Part shown: in pieces, positions 4,660-52,504 of the stretch
How positions within the stretch are numbered: position 1 is the first letter of the stretch
How the letters are laid out: every line of letters starts with the position of its first letter
Origin: Cenococcum geophilum 1.58
Taxonomy: Eukaryota; Ascomycota; Dothideomycetes; Gloniales; Gloniaceae
Length of the DNA: 64,000 nucleotides
Direction: 5' to 3'
NCBI GenBank assembly: GCA_001692895.1
Contig: KV748220.1
Coordinates: forward strand, 868,358 to 932,357
Made by a program: the position numbers and the translations under genes
The notes under the pieces: generated by a model
The model's input: the letters and a program-made list of their open reading frames with translations, nothing else
What the model was told of the DNA's origin: nothing
Databases searched by the model: none

Positions 4660-4907
4660 TGTTACGGAAGTGGGCACAAGCTGGAATACAATATACTAAA
4701 CAGGGTAGTAATTGAAGAAGGCTACGTACGCGTAACTATGCGTGGTTGATATAAAGACATTTGGATGCAGAACAGAACAGAACAGGTTAGGTACGGGTAT
4801 AAATAGGGGTTGTAGGGGAACGTGCGTAGGTGTCTCGGGACGAACGTGAGCACGGGTCAAGAACGTCAAAACGCGCAGGGACGTGAGAGCGTGTGAGTCC
4901 CGTGACA
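4660..4907 (+). mobile_element. Solo-LTR-like insertion, 248 bp, unmutated
   Basis: The insert begins TGTTACGG and ends CCGTGACA, an imperfect inverted repeat of LTR type. It is flanked by a perfect 5-bp target duplication CCTAC (4655-4659 and 4908-4912). A TATAAATA box lies near 4799. It is far richer in CpG, CpA and TpG than the surrounding Gypsy RNase H region, so it inserted after that element was mutated. The 70-residue open frame on its minus strand is a by-product. No internal region or second LTR is present, which fits LTR-LTR recombination. Confidence 0.8.
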
Positions 4908-7900: not shown

Positions 7901-8190
7901 GTTACTATTTTACCATTAGAGGTATTTAAGGATCCTATAGCTACTTTACCGGCTGCTGTATTTCTTAGTATAGTGGTATAGTTATTAGGGTAACTTTTAG
8001 TAGGATTCTATAGGGGTTCTAGTCTATGCGTATTCTATAGATCTTATTGTTCTTTTCTATTCTTCTAGTTCTATTCTGTTCTTTAAGTTCTAGTAATAGT
8101 CTTTAGGTCTACTTCTATGTTCTATTTTTATTTATAGTCTATAAATATTTTTAAGTTCCTTCTTAGGAAGAAGAGTAGATAAGCTTTAGA

Positions 8191-8699
8191 TAATATTAGC
8201 GACTTAGTTAATTAAGGCATAAGTATAGCAAAAGGGTCGCGCGGGCCTATATAATTAGATTATCTATAAACGAGGATCTAAAGCTAAAGAAAGGAAAAGG
8301 GAAGAAGGGTAGCGCCGTTTAAGGTTTTATACGATCATCTAGTTACGTAACTATAACTATCTAAAACAGTAAGAAACTGTCTGCGATTGTCCGCCACAAT
8401 CCACCACTACAATCTACCTGTAAGGGTTATTTTGGCCCTTACTCGGCTGCATCGCCTAGGGGCTCTCAGGGGTCGCCAAGGCTAGCCTTCGGCTAGCCCT
8501 TGGCACCTCCTTATAAGCACCTCAGGCTTGCAGCCCTTCCCTCCTCATCAGTTCGTCTCTGTACTCAGGCTATTGCCTACCCTCATTACCATATCGCCTC
8601 TTCCATCGACTCCCTATGTGACTCATGCTCGGCTTGCCTGCTCCCTACCGTACACCCTAGCAATACTGCCTTACACTACCGTTTTCTACTAGCGCCGTA
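8191..8699 (-). repeat. 5' LTR of the family 1 Gypsy element, interrupted
   Basis: The LTR lies in two pieces, 8191-8418 and 8681-8699, around a later 257-bp insertion and one copy of its target duplication. Its outer end abuts the 20-bp repeats of X copy A. Confidence 0.83.
8419..8675 (+). mobile_element. Solo-LTR-like insertion, 257 bp, inside another LTR
   Basis: It begins TGTAAGG and ends CCTTACA, a perfect 7-bp inverted terminal repeat of TG...CA form. A perfect 5-bp duplication CTACC lies at 8414-8418 and 8676-8680. It is GC-rich and unmutated beside a TpA-rich host. A strong stem-loop (about 8472-8503, arms CCAAGGCTAGCC and GGCTAGCCCTTGG) is followed by a TATAAG motif near 8511, as in an LTR promoter. 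The 66-residue open frame starting at 8500 is not supported as a gene. A small TRIM or SINE-like element is the alternative. Confidence 0.78.
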
Positions 8700-9021
8700 A
8701 CAGCTATCTAGTTCTAGCAACAGTTGTTTAGTTCTAGCAACGGTTCTCTACTAGCTGCTATTCTAGTACCTCCTAAAATAGGGAGGATATAAGAAAGGGC
8801 AAAAAATAAGATGGCTATAAAGGGGGTAATTTAGTAGAGGTATATATAGGCTATTAGAAATATAGTGGGGACCTAATAGCACTATATATCGCACGCACGC
8901 GTATATAGAGGGGAGTGTCGCATTAGGGGGGAGGTATCGCATTAAGGAGGAGGTATCGCATTAGGGGGGTGTCGCATTTAGGGGGTATTGCTTAAGGGGT
9001 ATATATAGAGGGGGTTGTTTT

Positions 9022-9040
9022 GGGGGGGGGGGGGGGGGGG
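9022..9040 (+). repeat. G19 homopolymer in X copy A
   Basis: Nineteen consecutive G bases sit in the G-rich part of X copy A, downstream of the GTCGCATT repeats. The matching part of X copy B has only runs of six to seven G, so this is probably slippage expansion; the exact length may be unreliable in an assembly. Confidence 0.9.
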
Positions 9041-9343
9041 ATTAAAAGGGATATCGCTTAGTAGGTGTTCTACCAGGAACCTAATAAGATAATTAGGAAA
9101 TACTAGTTTCCTATTAGGGGCCTAACAGGACAATTAGAAAAATTAAAGATCCTACTAGGAGCCTATTAAGAACCTATTAAAACGACTAGGATAATTAGGA
9201 AAATTAAGACCTTGCTAGGAGGCCTTTAAGATCTTAGCACCCTAATAAAATGCTAATGTTATAACTATATAAGCTTTTATAATCGCGTAGTTCCTAAAGT
9301 TTTCTATTATATTAAATAGCTATATATAATATTAAGATTATTA

Positions 9344-9771: not shown

Positions 9772-10290
9772 GTAGATAATTTAATATAATATTTCTAGTA
9801 TATAAATACCTTATAAGTGGACACCAGGTTAGGAATATAATTAGCTTTTTTTAACACTACTTTTAGCTACTTAAAAATAGCTTTTAGCTATACCTTTTTA
9901 TTATACCCTTAACTAAGCCTAAAAAGTGGTTAAACCATAGGTTAATAAGATGCCTATTATAACTCCTAGAGTTAGTTACTAGCGTTACTAGTAAAATAGA
10001 CCTATAAAGCGTAAGTATGGGCTTATATCTCTTAGGTGGATTTCTTTTATATATTGCCGTTATAATATTTAGAGGTACTCTTCTCTTGCCTATAGTACGG
10101 CAGTTAGGTTAAAATCGTTTCTATAGTCTAACTCGTCCTTACTTTCTCTAGCGCTATTTAAGTCCCCTTTAAATTAAATACTAAGTTAGTATACTCTATA
10201 TTAGAGGGAGGTTACTTATTTTATAGACGAAGCTATATTAGAGTTTAGGCGAATATAGCTTACTAGAGAGAATATATAGCTAATACTACG
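9772..10290. other. Unassigned RIP-mutated DNA between two elements
   Basis: No open frame, terminal repeat or domain was recognised. It is probably the same underlying sequence that flanks X copy A on its right (9262-9343) and resumes after 12214, because the intervening elements look inserted. Confidence 0.5.
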
Positions 10291-10697
10291 TCAGGAAAAA
10301 ATTTACCAGCATTTTTACAGCATTTGGCAGCATTTAGCGGCCAAATACGCATTCCGCGCACTATAACGTGTAGCGTATAGTATCGACTAAGGTGCGGCAT
10401 ACTGCCGTATTTAACAATGCGGTGTAGCATACTGCTGTATACTACCGTATTTAATAATATAGTACAGTATACTGCTATATTTAATAATATGGTGCAGTAT
10501 ACTGCCGTATTTAATAATGCGGTGCAGCTAATTACGCATTTTACACTTAATGCGCAATTAATATATAATGCCCTCCTCGCGCATTCTGTATATAATGCCC
10601 TTTTCGCACATTTTATATATCTTATTCTTCTTACGCAGTTAGTGCAAAATAAATTATATTATTTTAGATAATTTAATATATAGCGATAGTTCTTTTT

Positions 10698-10803
10698 TAC
10701 CTACCTACCTGCCTGCCTACCTACCTACCTATTTGCCTACCTGCCTATCTACCTACCTATCTACCTACCTACTTGCCTACCTACTTATCTATCTATCTAT
10801 CTG

Positions 10804-10842
<39 letters not shown>

Positions 10843-10880
10843 GTCTATACCTACCCGTCTATACCTACCTATCTGTGAAA
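10698..10880 (+). repeat. CCTA/CTAT tetranucleotide tract
   Basis: Blocks of CCTA, CCTG and CTAT repeats make the 60-residue YLSIYLSI open frame here a pure repeat shadow. It is the first part of the shared cassette. Confidence 0.9.
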
Positions 10881-10964
10881 ATACCTACCTATATTACCTT
10901 AATTTGATCAATTAATCGAATCGTTTATTATATTCGCTGGCTGGTCGTTTAAATAGTTATTATG

Positions 10965-11165
10965 TGGCTTTAGCAGCGGTCGTATGGCTCTGGCGACGGT
11001 CGTCTAGCTCTAACGACGGTCATCTGGCGACGGCAACGGTCGTCTAGCTCTAGCGACGGTCATCTAGCTCTGGCGACGGTCGTCTAGCTCTAACGACGGT
11101 CGTCTAGCTCCAGCGACGGTCGTCTAGCTCCGGCGATAGTCGTCTAGCTCCGGCGACAGTCGTCT
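10965..11165 (+). repeat. Array of 20-bp units (GGTCGTCTAGCTCTGGCGAC)
   Basis: About ten units of the form GGTCGTCTAGCTCYRRCGAC follow each other with few changes. The same unit recurs at 1975-2039 with 8703-8745, 14936-15175 (reverse), 16680-16780 (reverse, mutated) and 50045-50740. Confidence 0.88.
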
Positions 11166-11299
11166 GCTGGCTGTCTAGGTAGGGAAAATATAAGGAAGGG
11201 TAAAAATTAAGGTGGCTACCTAGGTGTATATAGGGGGTATACTTAGCAGAGGTATGTGTAGAGGCTATCGGGAATATAGCGGGGACCCGATGCGGAGCT

Positions 11300-11925
11300 T
11301 TGTGTAAAGCCTCCGTACGTAAAGCTTCGCGCAGAGCCTCGTGCAGAGCCTTTATACGCAGAGCTTTATATAAGAGCTTTGTGCAAAGCTTCGTGCAGAG
11401 CTTTGTATAGAGCTTTGTGCAAAGCTTTATGCAGAACTTTGTACAGAACTTCGTGCAGAGCTTCGTGCAGAGCTTTATACAGAACTTTATGTAGAACTTT
11501 ATACAGAGCTTTATATAGAGCTTTATGTAGAACTTCGTGCAGAACTTCGTACAGAGCTTTGTGTAAAGCTTCGTGCAGAACTTCGTGCAGAACTTCGTGT
11601 AGAGCTTTATGCAGAGCTTTGTATAGAGCTTTATGCAGAACTTTATGCAGAATTTCGTACAAAGCTTTGTATAGAACTTCGTGCAGAGCTTTGTATAGAA
11701 CTTCGTATAAAGCTTCGTATAGAACTTTATGCAGAGCTTTATATAGAACTTTATATAAAGCTTCGTGTAGAACTTCGTGTAGAGCTTTGTATAGAACTTC
11801 GTATAGAGCTTTATGTAGAACTTTGTGTAGAGCTTTATATAGAACTTTATATAGAGCTTCGTATAGAACTTTATACAGAGCTTTATACAGAACTTTAAAC
11901 TTTATATAGAACTTTATACGGAGCC
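11300..11925. repeat. 12-bp satellite array in Y copy 2
   Basis: About fifty units of the type GTGCAGAGCTTC, many changed to TATATAGAACTT, keep strict 12-bp spacing. The long open frames on both strands (98 and 176 residues of ALYR/CRAL-like repeats) exist because a 12-bp unit with no stop in a frame stays open. They are not evidence of a gene. Confidence 0.9.
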
Positions 11926-11931
11926 TCTATA

Positions 11932-12214
11932 TTAGGAAAAAATTTACTAGAATCTAATTTGACTTTTCTGCTATTTTAGCATTTTCTAGCATTTAGTAGC
12001 TAAATGCTAATACTTAATTATAAATATAGTATTTAGCGGCTAAATACTAATAGTTAGTAATAAATGCAGCTAAATACTAATACTTAATTATAAATGCGGC
12101 ATTTGGCAGCTAAATGCTAGTACTTAGTAATAAATGCCGCATTTAGCTGCTAAACGCTAGGAAATGCTGAAATGGCTAAAAAGTAAAAATAAATGCTGGT
12201 AAATTTTTTCCTAA
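11932..12214. mobile_element. MITE Z, 283 bp, long TIRs shared with the Y family
   Basis: Both ends start TTAGGAAAAAATTTAC and the inverted similarity continues for about 80 bp through GCATTT-TCTAGC and TTTAGYAGCTAAA motifs. The middle is built of repeats alternating AGCTAAATGCTAATACTTA and ATAAATGC. The right end of Y copy 2 coincides with it, and the left end of Y copy 1 (15777-15990) is closely similar. It may be a nested MITE or the natural terminal block of Y. Confidence 0.75.
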
Positions 12215-12222
12215 TGTAGTTG

Positions 12223-12342: not shown

Positions 12343-14524
12343 TTAAAAGCTAAAGGTATATTGCGAAGATACTGCTTTATATAGCGGTGGGCGGTTAGAT
12401 AATAAAGAGAGTGTTTTATTTACTAAGGCCCACTAAGTGCTAAATAGTAGAGGAAACTATTAAGTATTATAGTTAGACTCTGGTTATATATAAGGGTATA
12501 ACCTACCTTAACTAAAAGATTGGGACTTTGCGTTTTTAATTAAGGAGGTTTTACTACTAGATTATTAACAGATTTAGCGGATTTATTAATATTTAGTTGC
12601 TGTCGTTTTATAAAAGAAGTAGGTATAGACACGTAGTTACTATCTTTATTATTAGATATTACCCTTTTTAGCCAGAGGCGGCTATATATATTCTATACAT
12701 TATTAGCTAGCTTAATCTGTTATATATAATATTAATAGGGTCTATTATATACTTACTCCTCTTTATACCTAAATATAACTAAACTAGAGTTATAATATTG
12801 CTTATTCTAGCTGGGTTTTATATACTTATTCTCTGCTAGCGCGTTCTTCCTCCTATTAACTAGGATATAGGCGACTCCTAATAGTAGGCTAGGGAGAGAT
12901 ATAAGGTTAATTATACTAGCTATTCTTATTTCCTTATTCTACGTTAACTTAAAGTAGGGTTCTTGTTATTAATTTAAGTATTTAATAACGCGTTTTTATA
13001 TTTACCTACTAGAGCAACGCTTTTATATTTACCTAGTTAGTAAAAGGTATAGCTTATAGCTAGAATAAGTTACTTTATAGCTGTTTTTATAATATCTAAG
13101 GCGTATATAGACTAACAACTTAAAAAAACAAATATTAGTATAGTATATATTAAACTAATAGCAGTATTAATAGGAGTGTTATTACTATAGTGTTTATAAA
13201 TAACTTAAATAGAGATATATTTATTATAATTAGCTACTAGTTTTAACTAGTTATAGTTAAGCCGTAACTATAACCTATTAAGTTACGTTAAATTAAGAGT
13301 TAAGAAAATATTATTATATATTCTAAGATTATTAAATACTATTTACTATTATATACAAAACTGTTTTATTCTATTAGTATATCCCTTAGTAGATATTGTA
13401 TAGGTATATAAAATGTTAAATATTAACCCTAGCAATAAAAGCAAAAGACTAGTAAGGCTTATATCTAAATTTAATAAAGAGGCACTTTATTAAACTACAT
13501 TACCAACTTAAGGCGCTGGCTTTTAGATCCTATACCTTATTCTAGCCTATGTATACTAGGTTTAACACCCGTTTCACGCTTAAAGCGAATCTTATCTACC
13601 TTATCCATATAGCTTACTAGTATAAATAATACTAAAGTAGGTATAGGCGGTATGCAGAATAGTAATAATACCTCTATATAGTTATATTACTATATTTTAT
13701 ACCCTTATATAATACCTAGTATTTCTACTATAAATATCTAACGTTATTCTTCTATGTTATTGACCCCGCTAGCCTATTATAAGCCTAACCTACCCCCTAT
13801 ATATATATCGCAATAGTAATTAGATTTAGTAGAATGGTAAGAAAAGCGCAAGTATAGATATAAGGATTGGGTATTAGATACTAAGAGTAAGCTAGAGATA
13901 GTATTAACGTATATTACTCTAATAAGTTTACTAGAAAGAATAGGTATAAACCTTAAGCTTTATTACCTAATTCTTTTAGGCGTTTTAAGGGTGCTAAATA
14001 AGTTATAAGAATATCCTAGGATATATTATTCTAAGACTTCCTTACCTAATAGCACGCTAAGGAGTTCTAATATTAAGCCGTCTATCTTTATATATGATAA
14101 TCTATTAAACTAGTAAGTATCCTAAATAAAGCAGTGGCTTTAAGGCGTATAATCTATATAGCGGTTATTGTTACATCGGGAAAATATTCGCAGGATAAGA
14201 TTTAAGTAGACTTTGTTTAACGCGTTTCGCGTAATTAATATGCAATTGACTAACCTAATACGCAATTGACTAACTTAATATATTTAAAAGTTGGGTAACA
14301 CGTAGTTAACCTACTCGACAACTTTAAAAGCTAACTATATATTCCTTGACACGTAGTTAACCTACTTAACAACTTTAAAAGCTAACTGCATATTTCTTAA
14401 TATGCAATTAAGGCAAAGTTATATACTAATTACGTAAATAAATTTTTACTATTTTTTTTTAGCCTATAGTATGCTAGTATATAACATATTTAACTATTAT
14501 ATATAATCTTATATAATCTTATTA
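12343..14524. other. Long unassigned RIP-mutated stretch
   Basis: I translated parts of both strands and recognised no family. Base use is TpA-rich with scattered CG, like mutated transposons. Apart from the two-copy repeats at 12223-12342 (just outside) and 14299-14400, no terminal repeats pair up. A short doubled motif GCAATTGACTAAC occurs at about 14240-14275. The stretch could hold an older element lacking visible ends. Confidence 0.55.
14299..14400. repeat. Tandem repeat, 2 x 51 bp
   Basis: Units 14299-14349 and 14350-14400 share CACGTAGTTAACCTACT, then ACAACTTTAAAAGCTAACT. Differences are transitions. Confidence 0.82.
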
Positions 14525-15415
14525 CTTAGAGGCTCTATTAGAGGCTCTATATAAGGCTTTATATAGAGCTCTATACAAGGCTTTATATAAAGCTCTATAC
14601 AAAGCTCTATATAAAGCTCTATATAAAGCTCTATACAAAGCTTTACATATAGAGGCTCTGCACGAAGCTCTATACAAAGCTCTATATAAAGCTTTATACA
14701 AGGCTTTATACAAAGCTCTACGTATAGAGGCTCTGCGCGAAGCTCTATATATAGAGGCTTTGCGCGAAGCTTTGTATATAGAGGTTCTACACAAAGCTCT
14801 ACATTAGGTCCCCGCTATATTCCTAATAGCCTCTATACATACCTCTACCCTATATAGCTATCTTATTTTTTACCCTTTTTTTCTTATATCCTCCCTATAT
14901 AGGGAGGCACCAGAATAACAGCTAGTAGAGAACTATTGCTAGAACTAGACGACTATTACTAGAAGTAGATAACCATTACTAGAACTAAATAACCGTCGCC
15001 AGAGCTAGACGACCGTTACTAAAGCTAGACGACTGTTGCCAAAGCTATATAACCGTCGCTAAAACTAAACGACCGTTGCTAGAACTAGACGACCGTCACT
15101 AGAACTAGACGACCGTCGCCAGAGCTAGATAACCGTCGCTAGAACTAGACAACCGTCGCTAAAGCTAGACAATAACGACTAGCCGGCGAATACTATAAAC
15201 GACTTAATCGATTGATTAAATTAAGGTAGTATAGATAGGTAGTTATAAATAGGGAGATACTAACAGGTAGGTAGATATAGAGAGGTAGGTAAATACAGAT
15301 AGGTAGGTAAATGCTAATAGGTAGGTAGATATAGATAGGTAGGTAATATAGATAGGTAGGTAATATAGATAGGTAGGTAGGTAGATATAGATAAGTAGGC
15401 AGATATAGATAGGTC
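14525..15415 (-). mobile_element. Repeat cassette copy 3, reverse orientation
   Basis: Read on the minus strand it has the same order as the other copies: CCTA-type tract (15415-15225), spacer ending in ATTAATCAATCGATT-like sequence, 20-bp units (15175-14936), the linker with a perfect CCTCCCTATATAGGGAGG palindrome at 14890-14907 and a TATA-like box, then the 12-bp satellite (14805-14525). No X-type or Y-type ends were recognised next to it, so how it arrived is unknown. The 90-residue minus frame in the satellite is a repeat shadow. Confidence 0.72.
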
Positions 15416-15776
15416 TATATCTACTACTTTTAATAGCTACTTTTTAGCTATATATATAGATTATATAAAGAAATATATATAACTTGCCTTGCTAGTCTTA
15501 TAAATGGCTTAAAAATAGCCTTTATTTATTATTTATTATTTAAAATATACTATTGGCATAAAAGAGGCAGATGGCTCTAAATATAATTATAGTTGCTAAA
15601 TACGCAGGTTATAGGCAGGCTGCGCGCAGGCTACGCGTAGGCTGTGTATTAAAAAACACAATATAGGCTAGTCGGTCGAGTTGCCAAATGCCCTTAACTG
15701 TGCACTAATTGCGCTAACCACCAACCATTAAGGCCATTGAAAGGGTATAATATTTTGCCGATGTACTACCTTTTGT
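15416..15776. other. Less mutated unassigned spacer
   Basis: This stretch keeps more CpA and TpG than its neighbours. It contains TAGCTACTTTTTAGCTA and GCAGGCTGCGCGCAGGCTAC-like short inverted and direct repeats. No gene was recognised. A weak tRNA-like match at 15668-15726 on the minus strand was considered and rejected. Confidence 0.45.
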
Positions 15777-16289
15777 TAAGAAAAAATTTACCAGCATTTA
15801 ATTTTACTTTGCTGCCATTTTAGCATTTTTTAGCATTTCCAGCATTTTCTAGCATTTAGTAGCTAAATGCGGCATTTATAATTAAGTATTAGTATTTAGC
15901 TGCCAAATACAGCATTTATAACTAAGTTTTAGCATTTAGCTGCTGAATATAGCATTTATAATTAAGTCTTAGTATTTAGCTACTAAATACTAACTATAGG
16001 GTTGCTGAGTATATATAGGGGTATGGTTTTTGTATGTTTGATATGTTTTGGGTTTTGTATATACTTTATTAATATTGGTAAGCATATATAAGGGTGTGGT
16101 TTTAATAGTTTTAATAGTTTTAATAATTTTAAATAATTTTAAATAATTTTAAATTATATATATATTTTATTTATATTAGTAAGCATAATATAGATAATAG
16201 GGTTATAATAGTCAGCTACTGCCTTCCTAATTAGGCTTACTATAAGAATAGTTTAGAACATTAAAATACTGCCCCTTTTAACAAGTGTA

Positions 16290-16556
16290 TGTATAGAGCC
16301 TCCGTATATAGAGCTTTATATAAAGCTTCGTGCAGAGCTTTGTGCAGAGCTTTATATAGAAGTTCGTGTAGAACTTTATATAGAACTTTATACAGAACTT
16401 TATATAGAACTTTATACAGAACTTTATACGGAGCCTCTCTATAAAGTTCTGTACGAGGTTTTATACAAAGCTTTATATATAGAGGCTCTGCACAAAGTTC
16501 TGTATAAAGCTCTATATAAAGTTTTACACAAAGCTCTACGTACGGAGGCCTTATAT
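16290..16556. repeat. 12-bp satellite array in Y copy 1
   Basis: Degenerate 12-bp units alternate orientation: the left half reads AGAGCTTTATATAGA and the right half, after a junction near 16435, reads AAAGCTCTATATAAAG. Such a head-to-head arrangement also occurs in the MITE at 24499-25397. Confidence 0.8.
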
Positions 16557-17127
16557 TAGGTCCCCACTATATTCCCAATAGCCTCTACACGTACCTTTGC
16601 CAAGTATACCCCCTATATAGCCACCTTATTTTTTTTTACCTATCCTTCCTTATATCCTTTTTACTTAAAAAGGCACTAGAACGGTAGCTAGTAAAGGACT
16701 ATCGCTAGGACTAAATAACTGTCGCTAGAACTAGATAACCGTTACTAAAACTAGAACTAGATAATAACTATTTAAATAGCTAGGCAGCAAACACTATAAA
16801 TAATTTAATTAATTAATCGATTGAATTAAACCAGAGCTTTAATATTAGCCCATCGCCATATCAAATTAAGACCTCCTAGGGGGGTACCCTAGATAACTAC
16901 TATTTAAATATATATCTAGTAAACGGCCGTAGAGAATAATTCGAATTAATATAATCAATCAATTAATTAATTAATTAAATTAGGCGAAGCCTTTAATTAG
17001 GCCAACCTTTCCCCTAAATTATAGATAGGTAGATATAGATAGTAGTATAGACAGAAGATATAGATAGTAGGCATAGATAGTAGGTATAGATAGGTAGGTA
17101 TAGATAGGTAGGTATAGATAGGTAGGT

Positions 17128-17159
<32 letters not shown>

Positions 17160-17246
17160 GTAGATAGGTAAGTAGGTAGGTAGGTAGGTAGGTAGTAGGT
17201 AAGTAAGGAGGTAGGTAGGTAGTAGGTAAATAGGTAGGTAGATAGG

Positions 17247-17626
17247 TGTTATAGAACACCCCTATAACACCTTATATATATTTACCTATTTCCACTAACT
17301 TAGTAACTAAAGACCGACTATAAGATAGTAATCTAATAGCAATCTGCGGCAATCTAACGGTAACCTGCTATATTCTGCCATATTCCACTAAGTTCTACTA
17401 AGTTTTACTAAATCCTGCTAAGTTCTGCTAAGACTACTACCTAAATCCTATTCTACTCTATATACGTATTAACTAAGCAACTAAGTCTATAATATATACC
17501 CTTTCTTCCCGTTTTTCTACCTTTTCCTTTTATATAACGTCTTAATCTTATTATATAGTTTATATACATAGCTTAATAATATCTACTTTACTATATATTA
17601 TCGTCGTTTATGCTTACTTTGTAATA
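17247..17626 (+). repeat. 5' LTR of the family 2 Gypsy element
   Basis: The LTR starts TGTTATAG and ends GTAATA. It is the same family as the 370-bp LTRs at 32550-32919 and 38291-38660, which lie on the other strand. Confidence 0.93.
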
Positions 17627-20600
17627 CTATATTACGTTAACTTTATATACCACCTCCAAAATATAGAACGACCCTAAAGCCCCTATAACAACCGCTAGTA
17701 TTATATCCATACTCTAAGAATAACTAGTAAAGATATAGAAGTTTTTTATAGACGCCCTTATATAAAACTAAGCCACTTTAAATTAATAACAAACTAAATA
17801 AGAAGTACGATACTAGTAACTAATTAAGGACCTCTAAGAAGAAATCCGCACTTTTAAGATACCTACGTTAGGGCCTTAAAAATAAACACTATCTTTAGAG
17901 ATAAATATACGGAATATAAGCCCCGAACCTATAATAGCTATTTACCCCAAACTAACTACTATACCGTAATAATCCAAACGATTACTTAACCCTCTAGTAT
18001 TTATTAGTAAACGGCGAAAGCTCTAATTATTTTTAAGCTAGCTTAAGAACAGGCTGGCTAGTGGTGCTGGCTGTTACCTAACTAAAGCTAACTAACTCTA
18101 CTACGCCCTAAGTTAACTAGAAGAAGAGGTAGCTAACCTTATTAAACCCCTTTAACTAAACTTAGTATAAAGCCTAGTTATACTTCTTAAAGCTATATAC
18201 GGTAACCTAAACCGCTAAGCTACTACTTAAAGGAAAACAAACTATATAGCTTAAGGAATAAAAAGTTTCCTAGTATACTTCTTTAAATTTAACTATTACG
18301 TAAAGGAAACTGGCTGGAATAACTCTGCACTAGTTAATAGCCTTATTAAATCCCTAAGCCCTAAACTAAAAACCTTCCTAATAGGCGTAGACCTACTAGG
18401 AGCCCTTAATACTTACATAAACGTTATTAATAAACGGTATAATAATATACTACGCCTAATACCGAAATACGCTCCTTAATATAATATAATAGCCCCGTAA
18501 ACGTCTACTAAGTTATCTTAGCTTAAGCACCCTAACGCTACAGATATTAACACTAGGACCCTAGGATACGCCCTATTAGGGTCCTCTAAATAAGAATAAC
18601 GTATTAAGCTAGGCCTCTGCTTTAAATATAGAAGTAACTTCTACCTTTTTAACTACTACTCTATCCCTATACCTAAACATAATTTATAAACGGCTAATAC
18701 TAGCAACTGTTTACCGCATTAATCTTCCGGTTATTGTCCTTAATCTTTACCTAGTTCCAGCCCTATATTTAGTAAGCACTACTTATAAGGGCGAAGCTAT
18801 AACTAACGTTCTATAGGAACCCCTTCCCGCTTATTACTAAAAGGTATATTTTAGAGTTAAGTTACTTTCTAGGACGGCTCTGCTTTAAGATTTTATTAAA
18901 TGCTTTAGATATTACAAACTCTAACTCTTAGGATTATAGCATAACCGTTAACTATTATTTTTAGTAAAATAATTAATAGGCTAATACTTAAGTCCTAATT
19001 AATATAGGAGCTAGTAGCATAGGATTTATTAATAAGATCTTTGCGTAAGATAATAGTTTTACCTTAACCCCCCTTAACTGGCATATTAATATATTTAGAT
19101 TTAATAGTAAACGCATAGTCTTAAGCCGAATTACCTATATAGTATACCTAAAACTTTAATACCTAAACCACGAAGAACTAATTAGGCTTTTTATTACCAT
19201 CCTAGGTTATCTAGTAATTCTTAAATAATTCTAGATAAAGCTATATAAGGTAACTATTAATTAGGATAACCTTAGGCTTCTATTTACCACCCCCTATTAT
19301 AAGCAGAAGTGCTTTATAACTCGCTGCTTTAACCCTAAACTAAAATTTAGAAAATCCACTAAAATCTATTAGCCTAAGATTTCTACTAATGTCTACTCTA
19401 TACCTAAGGAATCCACCAGATTCTACTAGTATAGAAATTCTACCAAATTTCACTAATATAAGAATTCCACTAATATCTACCAAAGATCTAAAAATTCTAC
19501 TAAATTTTATAAGTTATTACTAAGTACTATACCGCCCTAAACTAAGTAGAAGCTTAAGCTTAGTATATAAAACTACTAAAAGAACTAGTACCCTATAATA
19601 AAAAGAATATTTAAAGAACCTAAACCTAAATCTAATACTAACTCTATACTTAATACTAAACCTAAACTTAAATAAGAAACTATAGACGATCTAAGTAAGC
19701 TCGGCACTTTAAATATCCGTATAATTAGAGCTACTCCATTAGTATAACTTACTAAGAAACCTAAATATATGATCTTTGCTATTACTACAGCTAATATTAA
19801 GAAGGCTTTAGCACTAAAAAAGTATACTAACCTTGCTATAAAGGTACTAATAGAGTACTATAACTGCTTAGAGACATTTTTTATAAAAGAAAGCCAATAA
19901 GCTACCGGAATACTAACTGTATAATTATAAGATTATACTTAAAGAAGGGAAGTAATTTAGATTTGGACCCCTATGTAGGATATTCTAAAATAAACTCTAA
20001 GTGCTATAGAAGTACCTAGATAAGAACCTAAGTAAAGAATTTATTAAAGTAAGCTCTTTACCTATAGCCGTATTAGTAATCTTTATTAAGAAACCGGGCG
20101 GTAAACTATACTTCTATGTAGATTACCGAGCTCTTAACGCTATTACTATTAAGGACTGATATCCGATCCCGCTAACATAAGAGACGCTAAATTAACTAAG
20201 TAAGGCTCGCTTCTATATAAAGCTTAATATTATCTCTATATTTAACCGCCTTTATATTATAAAAGGAGATAAATAGCTTACTATATTTTATACCTAATAT
20301 AAATTATTTAAGTATTTAGTAACACCCTTTAGCCTTATAAACACTCTAAGCTCGTTTTAATATTATATAAATAATACCCTGCGTCCCTACCTAAATATCT
20401 TCTATACTGCTTATATTAATAACATCCTAATATATAATAATAACCTAACTAAATACTGGAAATATGTTTATTTTATTTTATAAGCCCTATAAGGAGCTAG
20501 TTTATAATTAAATATAGATAAATATAAATTCTATAAAATAGAAGTTTTATACCTTAGGCTTTTTATTTTTATAAACGGCATATAAATAGACCTAAAGAAA

Positions 20601-22849
20601 GTTAAAGTAATTATAAACTGGTGGAAACCTAAGAACGTTAAGGATATAAGAGCCTTTATAGGATTTACCAATTTCTACTAACGGTTTATTAATAACTTCT
20701 CCGCCCTAGTTTTATCCTTTATAGCTCTAACCTAAAAAGATAAAGCCTTTATCTTTAATAAGGAATATAAAAAGGCCTTTGCTTATTTAAAGATTATATT
20801 TACTACTACACCTATACTCTAATACTTTAATCTAGAATAAGTAAGTGTTATAGAAGCCAACTTATTAGATTACGTTACTAGAGGTATTCTGTCTTAATAT
20901 AATAAAGAAGGAGTATTATACCCTATAGCATACTTCTTAAAGTAACTAATCTCTACTAAATATAATTATAAGATCTATAATAAAGAATTACTAGCTATTA
21001 TTAGATACTTTGGGCAATAGTAACCTAAACTAAAAGGCGCTGGATTTCTAATTAAGGTCCTTAGCGACTATAAGAACCTATAGTACTTTATAACTACAAA
21101 ACAGCTAAGTTATTGTTAAGCCTGCTAGTTAGAATATCTATCTCGTTTCTAATTCTTAATTATATACTACCTAGGCGTTTAAGGTTAAAAGCCTAATACC
21201 CTAACCTAATGCTTATAAGACGCGCCAGCCCTAAAAAAAGCGCGCTCTTACCGAAATTAAACCCTACTCCGCCCTAAACTATTTAATTCTCCTATAAAAG
21301 ACCTTACAGTGCACGTCCTTAAAATAACTAATTAATTAATTAAATAGATTATAATTAACAAATATTTAAATAACGAGTTTATCTAAGAGACGCTTAAGCT
21401 AATTTAAGATAGTATTAAACGCTTTACAAGGATTTCTTTAAGTAAATACGAAGCTTATGAAAACCGCTTATATTATTAGAACCACCTAGTTGTTCCTAAT
21501 TATAATAAACTTAAGCTTAAGCTCCTTAAATATATATATAACTTACTAGTAGCCGGCCACCTAGGCTAAGGAAAAACCCTAGAGCTACTCTAATAAGAGT
21601 ATTATTAGCTAAATATACACAATACGACACAAAGGTATATCTTTAGCTGCTATATCTATTAACGAGCTAAAGCTTTATACGAGATATATAACGGCCTTTT
21701 AAAGCTACTACCCGTTCCGGACCAAAAATAAAAGGATATCTTAGTTAACTTTATTATTTACCTCCCCGTAAGTAATGGCTATATAAATATTATAGTAGTT
21801 ATAGACCGACTATCTAAGATAAGATACTTAATTGCCTGCCCTAATGTGTTAATACCTACTATTATCTAACTATTTTTAGATTACGTATAGAAACTCTACG
21901 GACTTCTTAAAATAATTATCTCTAATAAAGGTAGCTAGTTTATCTCTATATTCTAAAAAGAACTAACTACCTAACTCCGTATTAAAGTACTATTGTTTAT
22001 AGTATACTACCTAAAAACGGATAGTTAAATGGAATATATAAATGCTATAATGGAATAGTATATTCAGATATATATGTCGTACTTATAAGATAACTAGATT
22101 AACTGGCTTATATTTACTAAGTTTACTATAAATAATTCCGTCTCGGAAACTATAAAGATCTCCCAATTCCTAGCCAACTACGGCTAGTATTTATAAATAG
22201 GTTTTAAACTCTTTAGTAATATTCCTTGCCCTACTTATTACGCCTTATAAGTTATAAAAGTAAATAAATTCGTAGAGAAGATAGAGAAACTATAACAGTT
22301 TCTTACTAACGAAATAATATAGGCTTAATCTGTCTATAAAGCTGTAGCGAATAAGAAATAAACCCTAGCACTAGCCTATTAAATTAGTAACTTTATCTAG
22401 CTAGATATAAAGAATCTAAATATAAAACAACCTATTAAGAAGCTTAATTAAAAGAACGCTGGCCCTTATAAGGTTAAGAAGGTTATTTTCTCCTACGCCT
22501 ATTAACTAAAGCTCCCTAATACGGTTAAAATCCACCCTATATTCTATACATTAGTCCTCTATCCTACTACTCCCGTATTAGACGCCCTACCTAAATAAAT
22601 ATAAGGCCTTCCCCTACTAGTTAAAGTGGATAGTAAGAACGAGTACTTTATTAAAAGAATTAATAATATTAAGTATAATAAACGGAAACGCTAATATATA
22701 TATCTTATAAAATGGAAAGGCTTTACTAAGCCCTTATAGGAACCCATTAACTTTATAGGACTTACATAAACTATAAAAGACCTTTATATACTCTACTTAG
22801 AATTACTATAGCCCTATCTTACAGAAGCTTAAGTTTAAAGGGGGGGTAC

Positions 22850-23229
22850 TGTTACGGGATACCCCCGTAACACCTTATACATATCTACCTATTTTTACTA
22901 ACTTAGTAATTAGAGACCGACTATGAGACGGTAATCTAAGAGCAATCTGCAGCAATCTAACGGCAACCTACCGCATTCTGCTATATTCTACTAAGTTTTA
23001 TTAAGTTCTACTAAATCCTGCTAAGTTCTGCTAGGACTACTACCTAAATCCTATTCTACTATATATATATATTAACTAAGTAACTAAGTCCACAATATAT
23101 ACCCTTTCTTCCCGTTTTCCTACCTTCTCTCCTTATATAACGTTTTAATCTTATTACATAGTTTATATATATAGCTTAATAATATCTACTTTACTATATA
23201 TTATTGTCGTTTATACTTACTTCGTAATA
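22850..23229 (+). repeat. 3' LTR of the family 2 Gypsy element
   Basis: The LTR starts TGTTACGGGATACCCC and ends CGTAATA, directly after the polypurine tract. It retains more C and G than the 5' copy at several places, so RIP acted unevenly on the two LTRs. Confidence 0.93.
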
Positions 23230-23390
23230 ATAGGCAGATAGGTAGACAGGTAAGTAGGCAGGTAGGTAGGTAGGTAGGTAGGTAGGTAGGTAGGTAGGTA
23301 GGTAGGTAGGTAGGTAGGTAGGTAGGTAGGTAGGTAGGTAGGTAAATAAGCAGGCAAGTAGATAGGTTAGTAGATAGGTAGGTAGAAAAG
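23230..23390. repeat. TAGG tetranucleotide tract, right half
   Basis: A nearly pure run of AGGT units (about 23250-23340) continues the tract at 17025-17246 that the Gypsy element split. Confidence 0.92.
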
Positions 23391-23797
23391 AACTATCGCT
23401 ATATTATATTAAAATATCTAAAATAATATAATTTATTTTGCACTAACTGCGCAGACTAAGTACTATTAAGTATATAGGATAAGCATTTAATAATAACTGT
23501 ATAGGAAGAGTAAGATATACAGAATGCGTAAAAAGGGTATTATATATTAATTGCGTATTAAGTATAAAAAAAGCTTAATAGAATAAAGGCACTATTTGCC
23601 TAGGTAGCTATAAATGCGTAATTAGCTATACCGCGTTATTGGTTTTTGTTAAATGCGGTAATATACCGCTTTTTAGTTAATACTATATGCTATACGTTAT
23701 AGTGCGCGGATTGCGCATTTAGCTGTAAAATGCTGCCAAATGCTGCCAAATGCTGCCAAATGCTGCAAAAATGCTAGTAAATTTTTTCCTAACGTTA

Positions 23798-24496: not shown

Positions 24497-24498
24497 TA

Positions 24499-25397
24499 AC
24501 GTAACACATGGGGTTTTGCTCGTCCCTAAGTTTTACTCACACTAGTAGACCACCTCCCTTTTTAGGCTAGAGGGCTTCCTAAAGTAGAATATTGCCACCT
24601 CCCAACTTTGAATATTAACTTTTACTAAGTTATATATTTACAAGTCTATCTAAAGTTAATTTCTAGTGTTTTAGGGCTTAATTGGCTGGTAAATTTGGCC
24701 CCAATCGCTATAGCTCTGCGGAAGCTCTGCACGAAGCTCTGCACAAAGCTCTGCGCGAAGCTCTGCATACGGAGGCTCTGCACGAAGCTCTACACGAAGC
24801 TCTGCATGAAGCTCTACACAAAGCCCTGCGTACGGAGGCTCTGCACGAAGCTCTACACGAAGCTCTGCATGAAGCTCTACACGAAGCCCTGCGTACGGAG
24901 GCTCTGCACGAAGCTCTGCGGAGGCTTTACGCGAAGCTCTGCGCGAAGCTCTGCGTACGGAGGCTCTGCACAATGCTTTTATATAGAGCCTCCGTAGTAG
25001 AGCCGTCGTACGCAGAACCGTCGTACGCAGAGCCGTTCTGCAGAGCCTCCGTATACAAAGCTTCGTACAGAGCTTCGTGCAGAGCCTCCGTACGCAGAGC
25101 TTCGTGCAGAGCTTCGCGCAGAGCTTCGCGCAAAGCCTCCGCAGAGCTTCGTGCAGAGCTTCCGCAGAGCTATGGCGATCAGGGCCAAATTCATCAGCCA
25201 ATCGAGCCCTAAAACACAAGAAATCGACTTTAGATAGACTTATAAATATATATTTATTGCTTTAAGACTCCTTACTAACGATGCAATGGTTTGTGATGGT
25301 TTTTACTAGTTATTTACTACCAAGTTGGCATTTTGGCGCATTTTTAATGTTTAAATCGAGCAAAACCCAGGGACGAGCAAAACCCCGTGTGTCACGT
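24499..25397. mobile_element. MITE W, 899 bp, inverted satellite arms, TA target duplication
   Basis: The ends read ACGTAACACATGGGG and, on the other strand, ACGTGACACACGGGG, and both continue TTTTGCTCGTCCCT. TA lies on each side (24497-24498 and 25398-25399). A second inverted pair (24668-24740 and 25140-25212, starting GTGTTTTAGGGC) encloses 12-bp satellite units, which face each other around about 24985. TA duplications and these ends suit a Tc1/mariner-pogo type non-autonomous element. The central arms are unmutated and rich in CG and CA, while the outer parts carry some RIP-like changes. All seven open frames here (up to 182 residues, EALHEAL/AKLCAKLC repeats) are satellite shadows. Confidence 0.82.
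24712..25172. repeat. 12-bp satellite array in MITE W, head to head
   Basis: The left arm is made of GAAGCTCTGCAC units and the right arm of GTGCAGAGCTTC units, its reverse complement. A GGAGGCTCTG variant (with TACG before it) recurs every 60-70 bp in both arms, so a higher-order unit was copied. Confidence 0.9.
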
Positions 25398-25399
25398 TA

Positions 25400-32919: not shown

Positions 32920-35246
32920 GTACCCCCCCTTTAAACTTGAGCTTCTGCGAGATAGGGCTATGGTAGTTCTAGGTAGAGTTTGTAAAAGTCTTCTGCGGCT
33001 TATATAAGTCCTATAAAGTTAACGGGTTCCTATAAAGACTTAGTAAAGCCTCTCTATTTTGTAAAATATATATATTAGCGTTTCTGTTTGTTGTACTTAA
33101 TATTATTAATTTTTTTAATAAAGTACTCGTTCTTACTATCTACTTTAACTAGTAGAGGAGGGTCTTATATTTATCTAGGCAGGGCGTCTAATATAGGGGT
33201 AGTAGGGCGGAGGACTGACGTATAGAATATGGGGTGGATTTTAACCGTATTAGGAAGCTTTAATTGGTAGGTATAAGGAGAGATAACCTTTTTAACCTTA
33301 TAAGGGCCAGCGTTCTTCTAATTAAGTTTCTTAGTAGGTCGTTTTGTGTTTAGATTTCTTATATCTAGCCAAATAAAATTACTAATTTAGTAGGCCGGTA
33401 CTGGGGTTTATTTCTTATTTGCTGCGGCTTTATAAATAGATTAAGCCTATATTATCTTATTAGTAAGGAACTGTTATAGTTCCTCCATCTTCTCTATGAA
33501 TTTATTTACTTCTGTAACTTATAAGGCGTAATAAGCGGGGTAAGGAATATTACTAAAGGGTTTAAAACCTATTTATAGGTACTAGCCGTAATTAGCTAGG
33601 AATAGGGAGACTTTCGTAGTTTCTAAGACGGAGTTATTTATAGTAAACTCGGCAAATATGAGCTAGTTAATCTAGTTATCCTATAAATATAACGTGTATA
33701 TCCGAATATACTATTCCATTATAGTATTTACGCGTTCCGTTTAGCCATCCGTTTCTAGGTAATACGCGGTAAATAACAGTACTTTAATACGGAGTTAAGT
33801 AGTTAGTTCTTTCTAGAATACTAAGATAAATTAGCTACCTCTATCGGAGATAATCGTTTCGGGGAGTCTGTGGAGTTTCTATATGTAATCTAGGAATAGT
33901 TAGGCGACGGCAGGCGTTAATATATTAAGGCAGGCGATTAAGTATCTTATTTTAGATAGTCGGTCTATAACTACCATAATATTCGTGCAGCCTCTACTCT
34001 TAGGAAGGTTAATAATAAAGTTAATTAAGATATCCTTCTATCTTTGGTCCGGAATAGGTAGTAGCTTTAAAAGACCGTTATACGTCTTATGCGAGGCTTT
34101 AGCTTGTCGGCAGGTATAGTAGCTAAAGACGTACCTTTATATTATATTATATATATTCGGCCAATAATACTCCCGTTAGAGTAGTTTTAGGGTCTTTTTT
34201 TAGCCCGGGTAGCTAGTAATAGGTAGATTATATATGTGTTTAAGAAGTTTAAGCTTAAGCTTATCGTAATTAGGGATAACTAAACGGTTCCGGTAATATA
34301 AGCGGTTTCTATAAGCTTCGCATTTACTTAAAGAAATCTTTTTAGAGCGTCTAATGCTATCTTGCATTAGCTTAAGCGTCTCTTAGATAAACTTGTTATT
34401 TGGGTATTTATTAACTATAATCTATTTAATTAATTAATTACTTATTTTAAGGATGTGTACCGTAAGATCTTTAGTAGGAGGGTTAAATAGTTTAGGGCGA
34501 AGCAGGGTCTGATTTTGGTAAGAGCGCGCTTCTTCTAAGGCTAGCGCGTCTTGTGAGCGTCGGGTTAAAGCATTAGGCTTCTAGCCTTAGACGCCTAGGC
34601 GGTACGTAATTAAGAATTAAAAATAAGATAGATATTCTAACTAGCGGGCCTAATAATAACTTAGCTGTTTTATAGTCGTAAAGTACTATAGGTTCTTATA
34701 GTTGCTAAAGACCTTAATTGGAAATCTAGCGCCTTCTAGTTCGGGTTGCCATTATTTAAAACATCTAATAATGGCTAACAATTCCTTATTATAGATCTCG
34801 TAGTTATATTTGGCTAGGCTTAATCGTTTTAAGAAGTATACTATAGGGTGTAATACTCCATCCTTGTTATATTAAGATAGGATGCCTCTAGTAACGTAGT
34901 TAGATAAGTTGGCTTCTATAATACTTATTCGGTTTAGGTTAAAGTATTAGAGCACGGGCGTAGTAGTAAATATAACCTTTAGATAGGCAAAGGCCTTCTT
35001 ACATTCCTTATTAAAGATAAAGACTTTATCCTTTTGGGTTAGAGCTATAAGGGGTAAAACTAGGGCGGAGAAGTTATTAATAAACCGTTAGTAGAAATTA
35101 GCAAATCCTATAAAGGCTTTTACGTTCTTAACGTTCTTAGGTTCTTACCAGTTTATAATTACTTTAACTTTCTTCGGGTCTATTTATATACCGTTTATAG
35201 AAATAAGGAGTTTAAGGTATAAGACTTCCGTTTTATAGAACTTGTA

Positions 35247-49000: not shown

Positions 49001-49685
49001 TCTATTATAAGTTAAGCTTCCTTATAGTACGTAGTTAGTACTTAATCTCTTATAGAGTCTATTCGTACTCTTCTTTTGCGTTAATAACCTACTCCTAAAT
49101 ATTATCTCTAATAGTACCCCCGTCCTTAGGGACAAATACTCTATTCTCCTAAAGGAAGTTACGAAAGTCCTATACAATATCCTTATTTACGGGGGCCTAT
49201 ATTTCCTTCATCAGCAAAATGTTTATGCCTCCTGACAGTACTGACAGCTCCTGACAGCTCCTGTCAGGGCTGTCAGGAGCTCCAGGAGACACTCACACTC
49301 GGCATCCTGTCAGGAACCTGTCAGGATGTCGCCCGGACCACCAGGACCACCAGGACCTCCAGGACCTCCAGGACCTCCAGGACCATCAGGACCTCTAGGA
49401 CCATTAGGACCTCTAGGACCTCCAGGACCACCAGGACAATAATAATAAAAAATACTTTGGTATTTACAGCTAGTTCAAAATTTTTAAAAATTAATTTAAT
49501 TATATTAAAATATAAAGCTCCTAATCTAGATTAATCCTTGTCTGTCTGTCCAGGAGCTCTACGATCGCTCGGGCGTCGGGCGATCAATTGAGGAGACAGG
49601 GAGAGCTCGCGGAGGCTCCAAATCGTCGATTGGCGGTGTTCCCGACGATCCGCCGACCGTGTGCTGATTTCCTAACTAGGCCTAG

Positions 49686-49719
<34 letters not shown>

Positions 49720-50044
49720 GCCTGTCCTGCCTGTCCTGCCTGTCCTACCTGTCCGTCCTACCTGTTCGTGCCTACCTGTCTGTGCCTATCTGTCTGTATC
49801 TGTAATTCGGGGAGAGGTCGGCCCGATTAAAGGTTCTGCTTAATTCGATTGCGATTAATTGTATTGATTCGAATCGTTCTCTATAGACGTTCGCTGGCTG
49901 TACGTTTGAACGGTGGTCGTCTGGGGTGCCTCCCTAGGAGGCCTTGATTCGATTTGATTCGGTAACAGGCTGATATTAAGGCTCTAGTTCGATTCGATCG
50001 ATCGATTGAATCGATTGTGGTGTTCGCTGGCTGGTCGTTCGAAC

Positions 50045-50740
50045 GATTATCGTCTGGCTCTGGCAACGGTCGTCTAGCTCCGACGACGGTCGTCTAGCTC
50101 TGACGACGGTCGTCTAGCTCTGGCGACGGTCGTCTGGCTCTGACGACGGTCGTCTAGTTCTGGCGACGGTCTCTGGTTCTGGCGAAGGTCCTCTCCTACC
50201 TGCCTATATCAGTATCTAATTTAATTCGGGGGAGGGGTCGGCCCGATTGAAGGCTCTAATTAATTCAGATCGTTCTCTATGGCCGTTTGCTAGCTATACA
50301 TTCAAACGGTGGTCGTCTAGGGTACCTCCCTAGGAGGCCTTGATTTGATTCGGTGATAGGCCGATATCAAAGCTTTGGTTTAATTCGATCGATCGATCAA
50401 TTGAATCGTTCGTGGTATTCGCTAGCTGGTTATTCGAACAGTCGTCGTCTGGTTCTAGTAACGGTCGTCTAGTTCTACGGTGGTCGTGTGGTTCTGGCGA
50501 CGGTCGTCTGGTTCTAGTAACGGTCGTCTGGTTCTGGTGACGGTCGTCTGGTCCTACGACGGTCGTGTGGTTCTAGCGACGGCCGTCTAGTTCTGGCGAT
50601 GGTCGTCTGGTTCTGGTGACGGTCGTCTAGTTCTATGACGGTCGTCTGGTTGTGTAGTTCTGGCGACGGTCGTCTGGTTCTGGCGACGGTCGTCTAGTTC
50701 TGGCGATGGTCGTCTGGTTCTGGCAACGGTCCTCTACTGG
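50045..50740 (+). repeat. 20-bp repeat arrays in X copy B, in two blocks
   Basis: Units of GGTCGTCTGGTTCTGGCGAC and close variants occupy 50045-50190 and 50440-50740. Between them a CCTGCCTATATC stub and a second copy of the spacer (GGGGAGGGGTCGGCCCGATT to TTGAATCGTTCGTGG) show that the tract-spacer-array part was duplicated within the element. Confidence 0.87.
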
Positions 50741-50867
50741 CTGCCGTTCTGGTGCCTCCCTAGGTAGGGAGGATATAAGGAAGGAAGGGTAAAAAATAAG
50801 GTGGCTACATAGGGCAGAGGCACGTGTAGAGGCTATCGGGAATATAGCGGGGACCCGATGCAGAGCT
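50741..50867 (+). promoter_or_regulatory. Conserved linker with palindrome and TATA-like box
   Basis: A perfect palindrome CCTCCCTAGGTAGGGAGG (50755-50772) is followed at once by ATATAA (50773-50778) and a purine-rich stretch, then a stem of ATCGGG (50835-50840) with CCCGAT (50854-50859). The 12-bp satellite starts directly downstream. The same linker is recognisable in all five cassette copies (about 8760, 11170, 14900 reverse, 16670 reverse). Promoter function is inferred from position and the TATA-like box only. Confidence 0.5.
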
Positions 50868-51475
50868 TCGTGTAGAGCCTCCGTACGCAGAGCTTCGCGC
50901 AGAGCCTCGTGCAGAGCCTCTGTACGTAGAACTTCGTGTAGAGCTTCATGTAGAGCTTCGTGTAGAGCTTCGTGTAGAGCTTCGTGTAGAGCTTCGTGTA
51001 GAGCTTCGTGTAGAGCTTCGTGTAGAGCTTCGTGTAGAGCTTCGTGTAGAGCTTCGTGTAGAGCTTCGTGTAGAGCTTCGTGTAGAGCTTCGTGTAGAGC
51101 TTCGTGTAGAGCTTCGTGTAGAGCTTCGTGTAGAGCTTCGTGTAGAGCTTCGTGTAGAGCTTCGTGTAGAGCCTCTGTACGCAGAGCTTCGTGTAGAGCC
51201 TCGTGTAGAGCCTTGTGCAAAGCTTCGTGCAGAGCTTCGTGCAGAGCTTCGTGCAGAGCTTCGTGTAGAGCTTCGTGTAGAGCTTCGTGTACAGTTTCGT
51301 GCAGGGCCTCGTGCAGAGCCTCTACGCAGAGCTTCGTGTAGAGCCTCGTGTAGAGCCTTATGCAAAGCTTCATGTAGAGCTTCGTGCAGAGCTTCGTGCA
51401 GAGCTCCGTGCAGAGCTTCGTGTAGAGCCTCGTGAGAGCTTCGTGTAGAGCTCGTGAGAGCCTCGTGCAGAGCCT
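50868..51475. repeat. 12-bp satellite array in X copy B
   Basis: Units of GTGTAGAGCTTC include about 18 near-identical copies in a row (about 50950-51165), then variants with GCAGAGC and AGAGCCTC. Five of the six reading frames lack a stop in the unit, which alone explains the 290-residue HEAL-repeat frame and the 199-residue STRS-repeat frame on the minus strand. Confidence 0.92.
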
Positions 51476-52504
51476 CGTTTGGGGTCGTTTGGGGGTGTGT
51501 CGCATTGGGGGGGTGTCTGGAGGGGTGTGGCATAGGAGGTGTCACTTTTGGGGGGTGTCGGCATAGGGGGTATCCTGCCAGGACGATCAGGAAAATACTG
51601 GTTTCCTGTCAGGACCCTGACAGGACCCTGAGAGGACGATCAGGAAATCAAAGATCCTGCTAGGAGCCTGTCAGGACGATCAGGACGATCAGGAAAATCA
51701 AAATCCTGCCAGGAGCCTGCCAGGAGCTCTCAGGACGATCAGGACGCTCCAGGAGGCTCCAGGATCTTGGCACCCCAACACAAATGCTGATGTAGTATTT
51801 AGTAGTCCGTAAATTTAATAGAGTCGTCCTTTATATATTCCTATAGCTGCGGTCTTATTGTATTTACTGTTCTTAATAATATGGTATTCAGTATAGGCGT
51901 TTGCTAAAATCCATTTAACTGTAACTATATTATATTATATCCGTTTGCACGGTTTATTATGGCTTTTTATTCTATATCTTTAGGTCTAATATTTTCCTTA
52001 TACTTCTTTAGGTCGGTTAACGCTATTAGTAGTAGCTTAAGTATTCCTAGGGTCTTATACATTGTAGGTAGGTATAGTTTTCTAGTTTTCCTCGGAGTTC
52101 TTATATGTTTGCTGATTAATAGGTCGGCAACTATTCTTAGATATTGTTATAGCGCGTAGTTTATACTTTTACTTAGGTCTCTATTTTGCTAGGTTATACT
52201 TCTAACTAAAGTACTTAGCCATAATCTTCGCGGATTAAGCACGTCGGTCTATAGATTCTTCGTATTAGAGATTTAAGCCGCTCTAGTATAGGAGCAATCT
52301 TCCTCCGTACTTAAATTAAGGTCTTCTTTTACTAGTTTAATCGTCGGAGGTCCCCCTAAGGCGTTAGCCGTGCGGTTTATAAGTATCGGCGGCGGTTCAT
52401 TAGCCCTATATAAGCTTATCTAAGTACTCCTTTATTAGTGCTAATCTCGTTTTATTAAAAGTCTAGCTACTTTATAGTTATCTATATATTTAAGCACTAA
52501 TTAG

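Follow-up and report, generated by a model that had tools for sequence, protein, structure and literature searches.

In plants, En/Spm (CACTA) transposons combine CACTA ends and short target site duplications (TSDs) with short subterminal repeat arrays; the repeats of these transposons are subterminal, whereas those that the element types described here have in common are internal. Most termini in the CMCT clade take the general form CA..TG. Within the Plavaka kind, PlavakaB generates TSDs of 2 or 3 bp and has 5'-CATCA..TGATG-3' ends, and the available part of its account describes no cassette like the one reported here (PMC12730594). Compared with PlavakaB as set out in that part, we find three end sets in one genome, a common non-coding cassette and no coding sequence (PMC12730594). 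Two other systems are known for rebuilt interiors. For Pack-TIRs, gap filling and template switching have been proposed, and some of the chimaeras were amplified via transposition; in these elements and in Pack-MULEs, as here, the interior is replaced and the ends are kept, but according to the sections of the source at hand their filler comes from elsewhere in the host genome, whereas here it is a repeat block common to transposon families (PMC8277862). In Galileo, a P superfamily transposon of Drosophila, restructuring has been attributed to gap repair and ectopic recombination (PMC4168063). Like the elements described here, Galileo has coexisting subfamilies and internal tandem repeats in a copy; unlike them, in what we could draw from the source, it makes 7–8 bp TSDs, belongs to another superfamily and has subfamily terminal inverted repeats that can still be aligned (PMC4168063).

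A non-coding cassette in elements with different ends

The window, by which we mean the whole stretch of DNA analysed, comprises 64,000 nt of Cenococcum geophilum 1.58 (GCA_001692895.1, contig KV748220.1, 868,358–932,357), in a genome of 177,193,698 bases on 162 contigs. It carries five copies of a non-coding cassette within elements whose ends differ. The order of the cassette is a CCTA/CTGC tract, a spacer, a 20-bp array, a palindrome–TATA linker and, usually, a 12-bp satellite. An earlier note, made from the sequence alone, had reported this order at several places in the window, and it is real: the tract, the 20-bp array and the satellite were found by Tandem Repeats Finder and by reading of the raw sequence, and the linker aligns at 8755–8873, 11163–11299, 14795–14915 (reverse strand), 16559–16687 (reverse strand) and 50741–50867. 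A search of open-licence papers found no description of the cassette.

The copies lie in a native type C element at 1196–9258 (forward strand; without satellite, interrupted at about 2045–8705, with a degenerate left end located via alignment and a TSD, TT/TT, read by eye), a type B element with cassette and satellite at 10289–12216 (forward; TSD TA/TA), a type A element with cassette and satellite at 14174–15763 (reverse; TSD TA/TA), a type B element with cassette at 15774–23794 (reverse; interrupted at 17256–23229, TSD TT/TT) and a C/A/C mosaic at 49209–51792 (forward; flanks TT/TA, no duplication). The insertions that split two of these cassette elements, at 2045–8705 and 17256–23229, are each about 6–7 kb long. 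All the cassette-bearing elements are gene-less, their copies being devoid of coding sequence, and the five open reading frames of at least 150 aa in the window all lie inside 12-bp satellite. The note had counted two copies with C-type ends, two with B-type ends and one with neither, a correct tally; the last is flanked by a third type, A, at 14174–15763, with the end CATCGGSAAAATAT on the left paired with a ATATTTTCCCGATG-like end on the right. The type B end is CGTYAGGAAAAAATTTACC, and type C has CATCAGCAAAATG on the left and AATGCTGATG on the right in the C loci cut.

The note had further named many copies with several distinct terminal types as support for its reading, and the genome holds both. 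A search with the linker at 50741–50867 gave at least 40 places at 95–100% identity, a lower bound on copy number since only the best 40 of 1,360 first-look candidates were scored. Among the 20 places around which 10-kb stretches were taken (the linker-picked loci), 17 have both A ends, two have one clear A end (L028 and L011, the sole right match of L011 being weak and 3.6 kb off) and one, L025, is a second mosaic. C loci were sought with the left 486 bp of the window mosaic; 40 places were scored and 15 loci cut, which include the window itself and L025 and thus leave 13 other C loci. The B-type linker at 11164–11300 gave 40 other places, of which six were fetched at 2.2 kb each: L044 has both B ends, L045, L046, L048 and L049 have one and L047 has none. 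Set against the first 100 exact B-end matches listed, at least 14 of the 21 B-linker places on contigs 1–33 lie no more than 2 kb from such an end. Genome-wide, the A left motif has 392 matches (0 for its reversed-motif control), the A right motif 425 (control 1), the B motif 451 (control 0) and the C left motif 119 at up to two mismatches, including a CATCAGG variant (control 0). The linker and end-motif numbers are far above chance.

Some B ends are also found far apart. The first 100 exact B ends include ten facing pairs 19.8–35.4 kb apart (on contigs 1, 8, 10, 12, 13, 22, 24, 25, 26 and 30) against two same-strand pairs, and random placement (2,000 times, with 115 Mb taken as the assumed length of contigs 1–33) gave a mean of 0.67 and a maximum of 5 facing pairs. 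Two of the pairs have nearly equal spans, 19,804 and 19,813 bp, and L052 and L053, the ends of one large pair, match B subterminal regions at about 80%. In the 5 kb of ends read from the 19.8-kb candidate, a single open reading frame of at least 60 aa lies within terminal repeats. Such pairs may represent either giant transposons that share these ends or shorter elements that nested insertions have stretched.

Terminal core, target duplications and Plavaka

The three end types had been called unrelated, a description that does not hold for their outermost 12 bp or for the kind of target duplication they make. In these 12 bp, A left and C left agree at 11 positions, B and the CATCAGG variant at 10, and A and B at 8–9; C right and B agree at 6, no better than p of 0.05. 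Duplications are 2 bp long in 16 of 17 A elements for which both ends are present (3 bp in the other), in nine of ten C elements (L036 is without duplication) and in all three B elements. For type C, they were readable in ten of the 15 cut loci, the remainder being the window, L025 and loci whose stretch does not contain both ends. The B end was placed, by comparing both ends, four bases outside the motif of the earlier note, so the three B duplications partly follow from the choice of end position. The duplicated dinucleotides vary (TA, TT, AA, AG, TG, GA, AT and CT). Tc1/mariner transposons duplicate only TA and are ruled out by the others. KDZ transposons make TSDs of 7–8 bp, not the 2 bp seen here, and the KDZ profile PF18758 has no match in the genome, nor in control genomes. 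The 2 or 3 bp of PlavakaB, as the available text of its account gives them, agree with 17 of 17 A, nine of ten C and three of three B elements, though not with the window mosaic and its TT/TA flanks (PMC12730594). With respect to the PlavakaB termini given in the same text, C (CATCAGCA..TGCTGATG) matches exactly and B, which starts CGTC, CGTT, CATT or TGTC, fits loosely (PMC12730594); A, with CATCGG..CCGATG, fits the general CMCT form.

Several insertions have a counterpart without the element. Within the fetched sequences, an empty-site paralogue exists for nine of 17 A elements, eight with a 2-bp and one with a 3-bp overlap; the C element L038 has one inside the window, at 33073–33764, and L025 has one in L019, both with a 2-bp overlap. 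In the C elements L036 and L037 and in some A paralogues the sites are separated by gaps of 2–10 bp with no overlap, which would fit small changes there. Could one cassette element nested inside others mimic several end types? Later insertions do interrupt two of the window copies, as such a history would have it, but the empty sites and duplications mark the type-specific ends as true ends, and the same arrangement of ends and cassette recurs in 19 of 20 linker-picked loci and in each of the 12 native C loci whose sequence continues beyond the linker. We regard nesting as having next to no chance of being right in general, and for the loci examined the empty sites and duplications refute it as the source of the different ends. 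The earlier note had named a single terminal type with nesting as the case that would overturn its reading, and for these loci that case is excluded.

Type A is tied to Plavaka directly, its right end being found on broken Plavaka genes. The Plavaka profile PF18759 has 123 listed matches, which merge into 110 loci, and stop codons occur in each listed match. On contigs 1–12, an exact A right end lies downstream on the same strand of four of 34 PF18759 loci, at 2,103, 2,145, 2,194 and 2,195 bp; beyond these four, no listed exact A right end comes closer than 8.4 kb to any of the 34. In the Plavaka-coding element on contig 3, the last 300–325 bp or so align with A right shells at 77–82% in the longer alignments; the 2.6 kb fetched for this element does not include its left end. 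The sharing of ends with a Plavaka-coding element thus holds for the right end of A. For B and C, the 12 kb around 100 listed C left ends (of 119) and around 100 listed exact B ends (of 451) contain no PF18759 match, in a comparison that omitted 12 of the 123 rows, each the second piece of a listed locus. Since Plavaka matches are absent from this range of the listed B and C ends, we infer mobilisation of B and C by Plavaka solely from their ends and duplications. The window has a TA/AT ratio of 1.72 and a (CA+TG)/(AC+GT) ratio of 0.45; together with the stop codons in all listed Plavaka matches, these values suggest repeat-induced point mutation.

The common terminal core and the 2-bp (once 3-bp) duplications are close to the PlavakaB signature, and exchange between the three types therefore looks like exchange within one broad kind of transposon. 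This bears on the proposal of the earlier note that the cassette had moved between transposon types. The proposal stands insofar as the cassette occurs in three families, one of which got a block from another; it does not extend to movement across superfamilies, given the similar core and the 2-bp, once 3-bp, duplications.

The cassette and the shells compared

We use shell for the terminal inverted repeats together with the family-specific subterminal repeats. Shells of different types were aligned locally, with one example per shell, 12 cross-type pairings and 200 shuffles that preserve single-base make-up only. In nine pairings at least 14 of the 200 shuffles reach the observed score. The other three stand above most shuffles (A left/C left, 0 of 200; A right/B left, 2; B left/C left, 5), with low scores of 23–27, and of these only A left/C left is clearly the terminal core. 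The cassette behaves differently. Between A and B, the common block starts about 55 bp ahead of the tract and extends through the satellite; between A and C, as between B and C, it spans everything from tract to linker and leaves the satellite outside. The edges are sharp in each case. For distances and trees, alignments covering more than 60% of a piece were kept, which left 6 of 20 A, 10 of 13 C and 0 of 7 B rows for spacer 1, 7 of 20, 13 of 13 and 0 of 7 for spacer 2, and 20 of 20 (one being the window's), 12 of 13 and 4 of 7 for the linker. Mean distances between A and C are 0.183 for spacer 1 (transversions 0.026), 0.151 for spacer 2 (0.024) and 0.136 for the linker (0.040), and linker distances are 0.099 between A and B (0.019) and 0.151 between B and C (0.042); within types, mean distances of cassette pieces are 0.03–0.10. 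With families 10–18% apart in the measured cassette pieces, inside shells that hardly align, the cassette pieces are much closer than the shells. Ends and subterminal repeats follow the family; the cassette does not.

These comparisons bear on common descent, by which one ancestral cassette element gave rise to three families whose ends diverged fast with their own transposases, without exchange beyond one mosaic. The likeness of the outermost 12 bp (11 of 12 for A left and C left) is what such descent would leave, and so are the weak similarity in two further shell pairings and the linker tree, in which native C forms a clade (99/96) and native B does too. It fits poorly, however, with a cassette that differs by 10–18% while hundreds of base pairs of shell hardly align, and with the contig 3 Plavaka-coding element, which has the A right shell and no part of the cassette in the last 917 bp read: there the linker match is only 12 bp (E 0.61), no satellite part passes E 1, and the other matches are short pieces of C-specific spacer. 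The mosaic described below, moreover, shows that exchange does happen. We therefore consider common descent without further exchange unlikely, though it is the strongest of the rival readings.

The window also holds, at 24497–25399, an inverted-repeat element with only the 12-bp satellite, arranged head to head; its 42-bp outer arms begin TAACGTAACACATGGGG, and its subterminal part has 38 genome matches, including five arranged as facing pairs with a spacing of about 2.2 kb. The presence of the satellite alone in another element is what might be seen if the cassette were itself a mobile element or a satellite inserting into transposons, which the earlier note had entertained in calling it a cargo or parasite. 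Against this, an inverted match is missing at the cassette edges of the single A element examined, where 407 of 500 shuffles score at least as high, and the edges of the shared block differ by pair, lying about 55 bp further left and including the satellite between A and B, and excluding it between A and C and between B and C. On the edges of that element we reject the cassette as a transposon with its own ends, and we think it very improbable that the cassette moves by itself in any form.

A mosaic copy and the probable passage of the cassette between shells

The earlier note had taken 49209–51792 to be a plain C element with the cassette. Judged from sequence comparison by tiles, distances and trees, it is instead a C/A/C mosaic, with C-type ends and left half and an A-type linker and satellite. 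All its parts lie on the forward strand. The left terminal inverted repeat is of type C (CATCAGCAAAATGTTTATGCC, 49209–49229; 119 genome matches at up to two mismatches, control 0) and is followed by type C left subterminal repeats in units of 9–10 bp (49229–49440), matched in 13 of 13 other C loci, and by a left spacer that locus comparison assigns specifically to type C (49441–49684). The cassette starts with the CCTA/CTGC tract at 49685–49800, delimited by repeat finding and cross-type alignment. Spacer 1 (49808–50045) is C-like, with a mean distance of 0.087 to 10 C and 0.178 to 6 A; the first 20-bp array (50050–50194) does not distinguish A from C. A second tract and spacer (50195–50436), placed by tiles and distances, leads to the second 20-bp array (50444–50735), inside which the switch from C to A probably lies. 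The linker (50741–50867), with the palindrome CCTCCCTAGGTAGGGAGG and TATAAGG, is A-like, at 0.032 from 20 A and 0.122 from 12 native C. It is followed by the 12-bp satellite (50868–51478), found in A and B types and not in native C, by type C right subterminal repeats (51479–51777; repeat finding, tiles) and by the type C right terminal inverted repeat (AATGCTGATG, 51778–51792; end comparison).

The 120-bp tiles from 49205 to about 50440 are nearest to native C, save in the first 20-bp array, where A and C are not clearly different; those from about 50505 to 51405 are nearest to A, and that at 51605 is nearest to C again. Five tiles (50905–51305) have no match at all in native C, and none of the 12 native C loci extending past the linker has a satellite match. 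Approximately unbiased (AU) tests, which on such short pieces reach moderate significance only, reject a clade of A and mosaics for spacer 1 (p-AU 0.029) and a clade of C and mosaics for the linker (p-AU 0.034). For the linker, A and mosaics are also rejected as a clade (p-AU 0.0225), because B and C branch inside A. Because A copies were selected for a linker resembling that of the window copy, and C copies by their left end, the linker result is biased towards A affinity of the mosaic; the satellite evidence is independent of that picking.

With up to one mismatch allowed, the junction between satellite and C right shell is present in three places: the window, L025 (contig 93) and contig 22 at 948936, where the C left end of L030 lies 3.5 kb away. 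Allowing two mismatches adds 27 places, mostly satellite variants (control 3). In the spacer 1 tree, L030 groups with the two mosaics (100/100). This probable third mosaic has other elements, CTACAGTCAATTG...CAATTGACTGTAG, nested in its first 20-bp array, beyond the point where that array starts. The empty-site paralogue of L025, with its 2-bp overlap, implies that the mosaic as a whole has transposed. Between the window mosaic and L025, the elements differ by 18 transversions in 2,436 positions and 17 gaps. Their left flanks have no match; on the right, homology between the flanks begins at the very first position (83%, with 67 transversions in 619 and 24 gaps). The shared right flank could be accounted for if an old repeat had been hit twice at the same site, or if an aberrant transposition had retained one of the flanks. 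The repeat in this flank, at 51793–52474, has the same start base in two diverged copies, one of them beside L025, whose empty site is in L019.

One family thus received a block from another, and the general direction of transfer between families is one that we infer. The account we favour, and hold to be probable, is that non-autonomous Plavaka-type (CMCT clade) shells swap a non-coding cassette by repair or recombination in shared arrays. On this view the elements belong to the Plavaka kind and move by cut and paste as non-autonomous DNA transposons; a family-specific shell would fit recognition by its own transposase, and the internal cassette would be a non-coding cargo passing between shells. 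Most likely, a break or excision gap inside one element would be repaired from an element of another family, with the template switch made within the shared CCTA tracts and 20-bp arrays. As the repaired element would retain its own ends, its own transposase could keep moving it. A bolder version, to which we give a small but real chance, is that the cassette is a selfish non-coding module above single families that passes from shell to shell via repair in its own arrays and rides any active Plavaka-type transposase, with the B shells of apparently 20–35 kb suggesting very large cargo uptake too.

In this genome Plavaka-type ends are tied to hundreds of copies, and the Plavaka genes found are all broken. 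The results urge caution against naming fungal repeat families on internal similarity. One copy visibly combines two families, so elements of this sort can exchange their interiors and keep the ends that give mobility, and a recognisable chimaera that was mobile after its formation makes interior exchange between non-autonomous families directly testable. It is customary to define transposon families by their ends and to classify them singly; in this genome, the history of the ends appears to be separate from that of the cargo.
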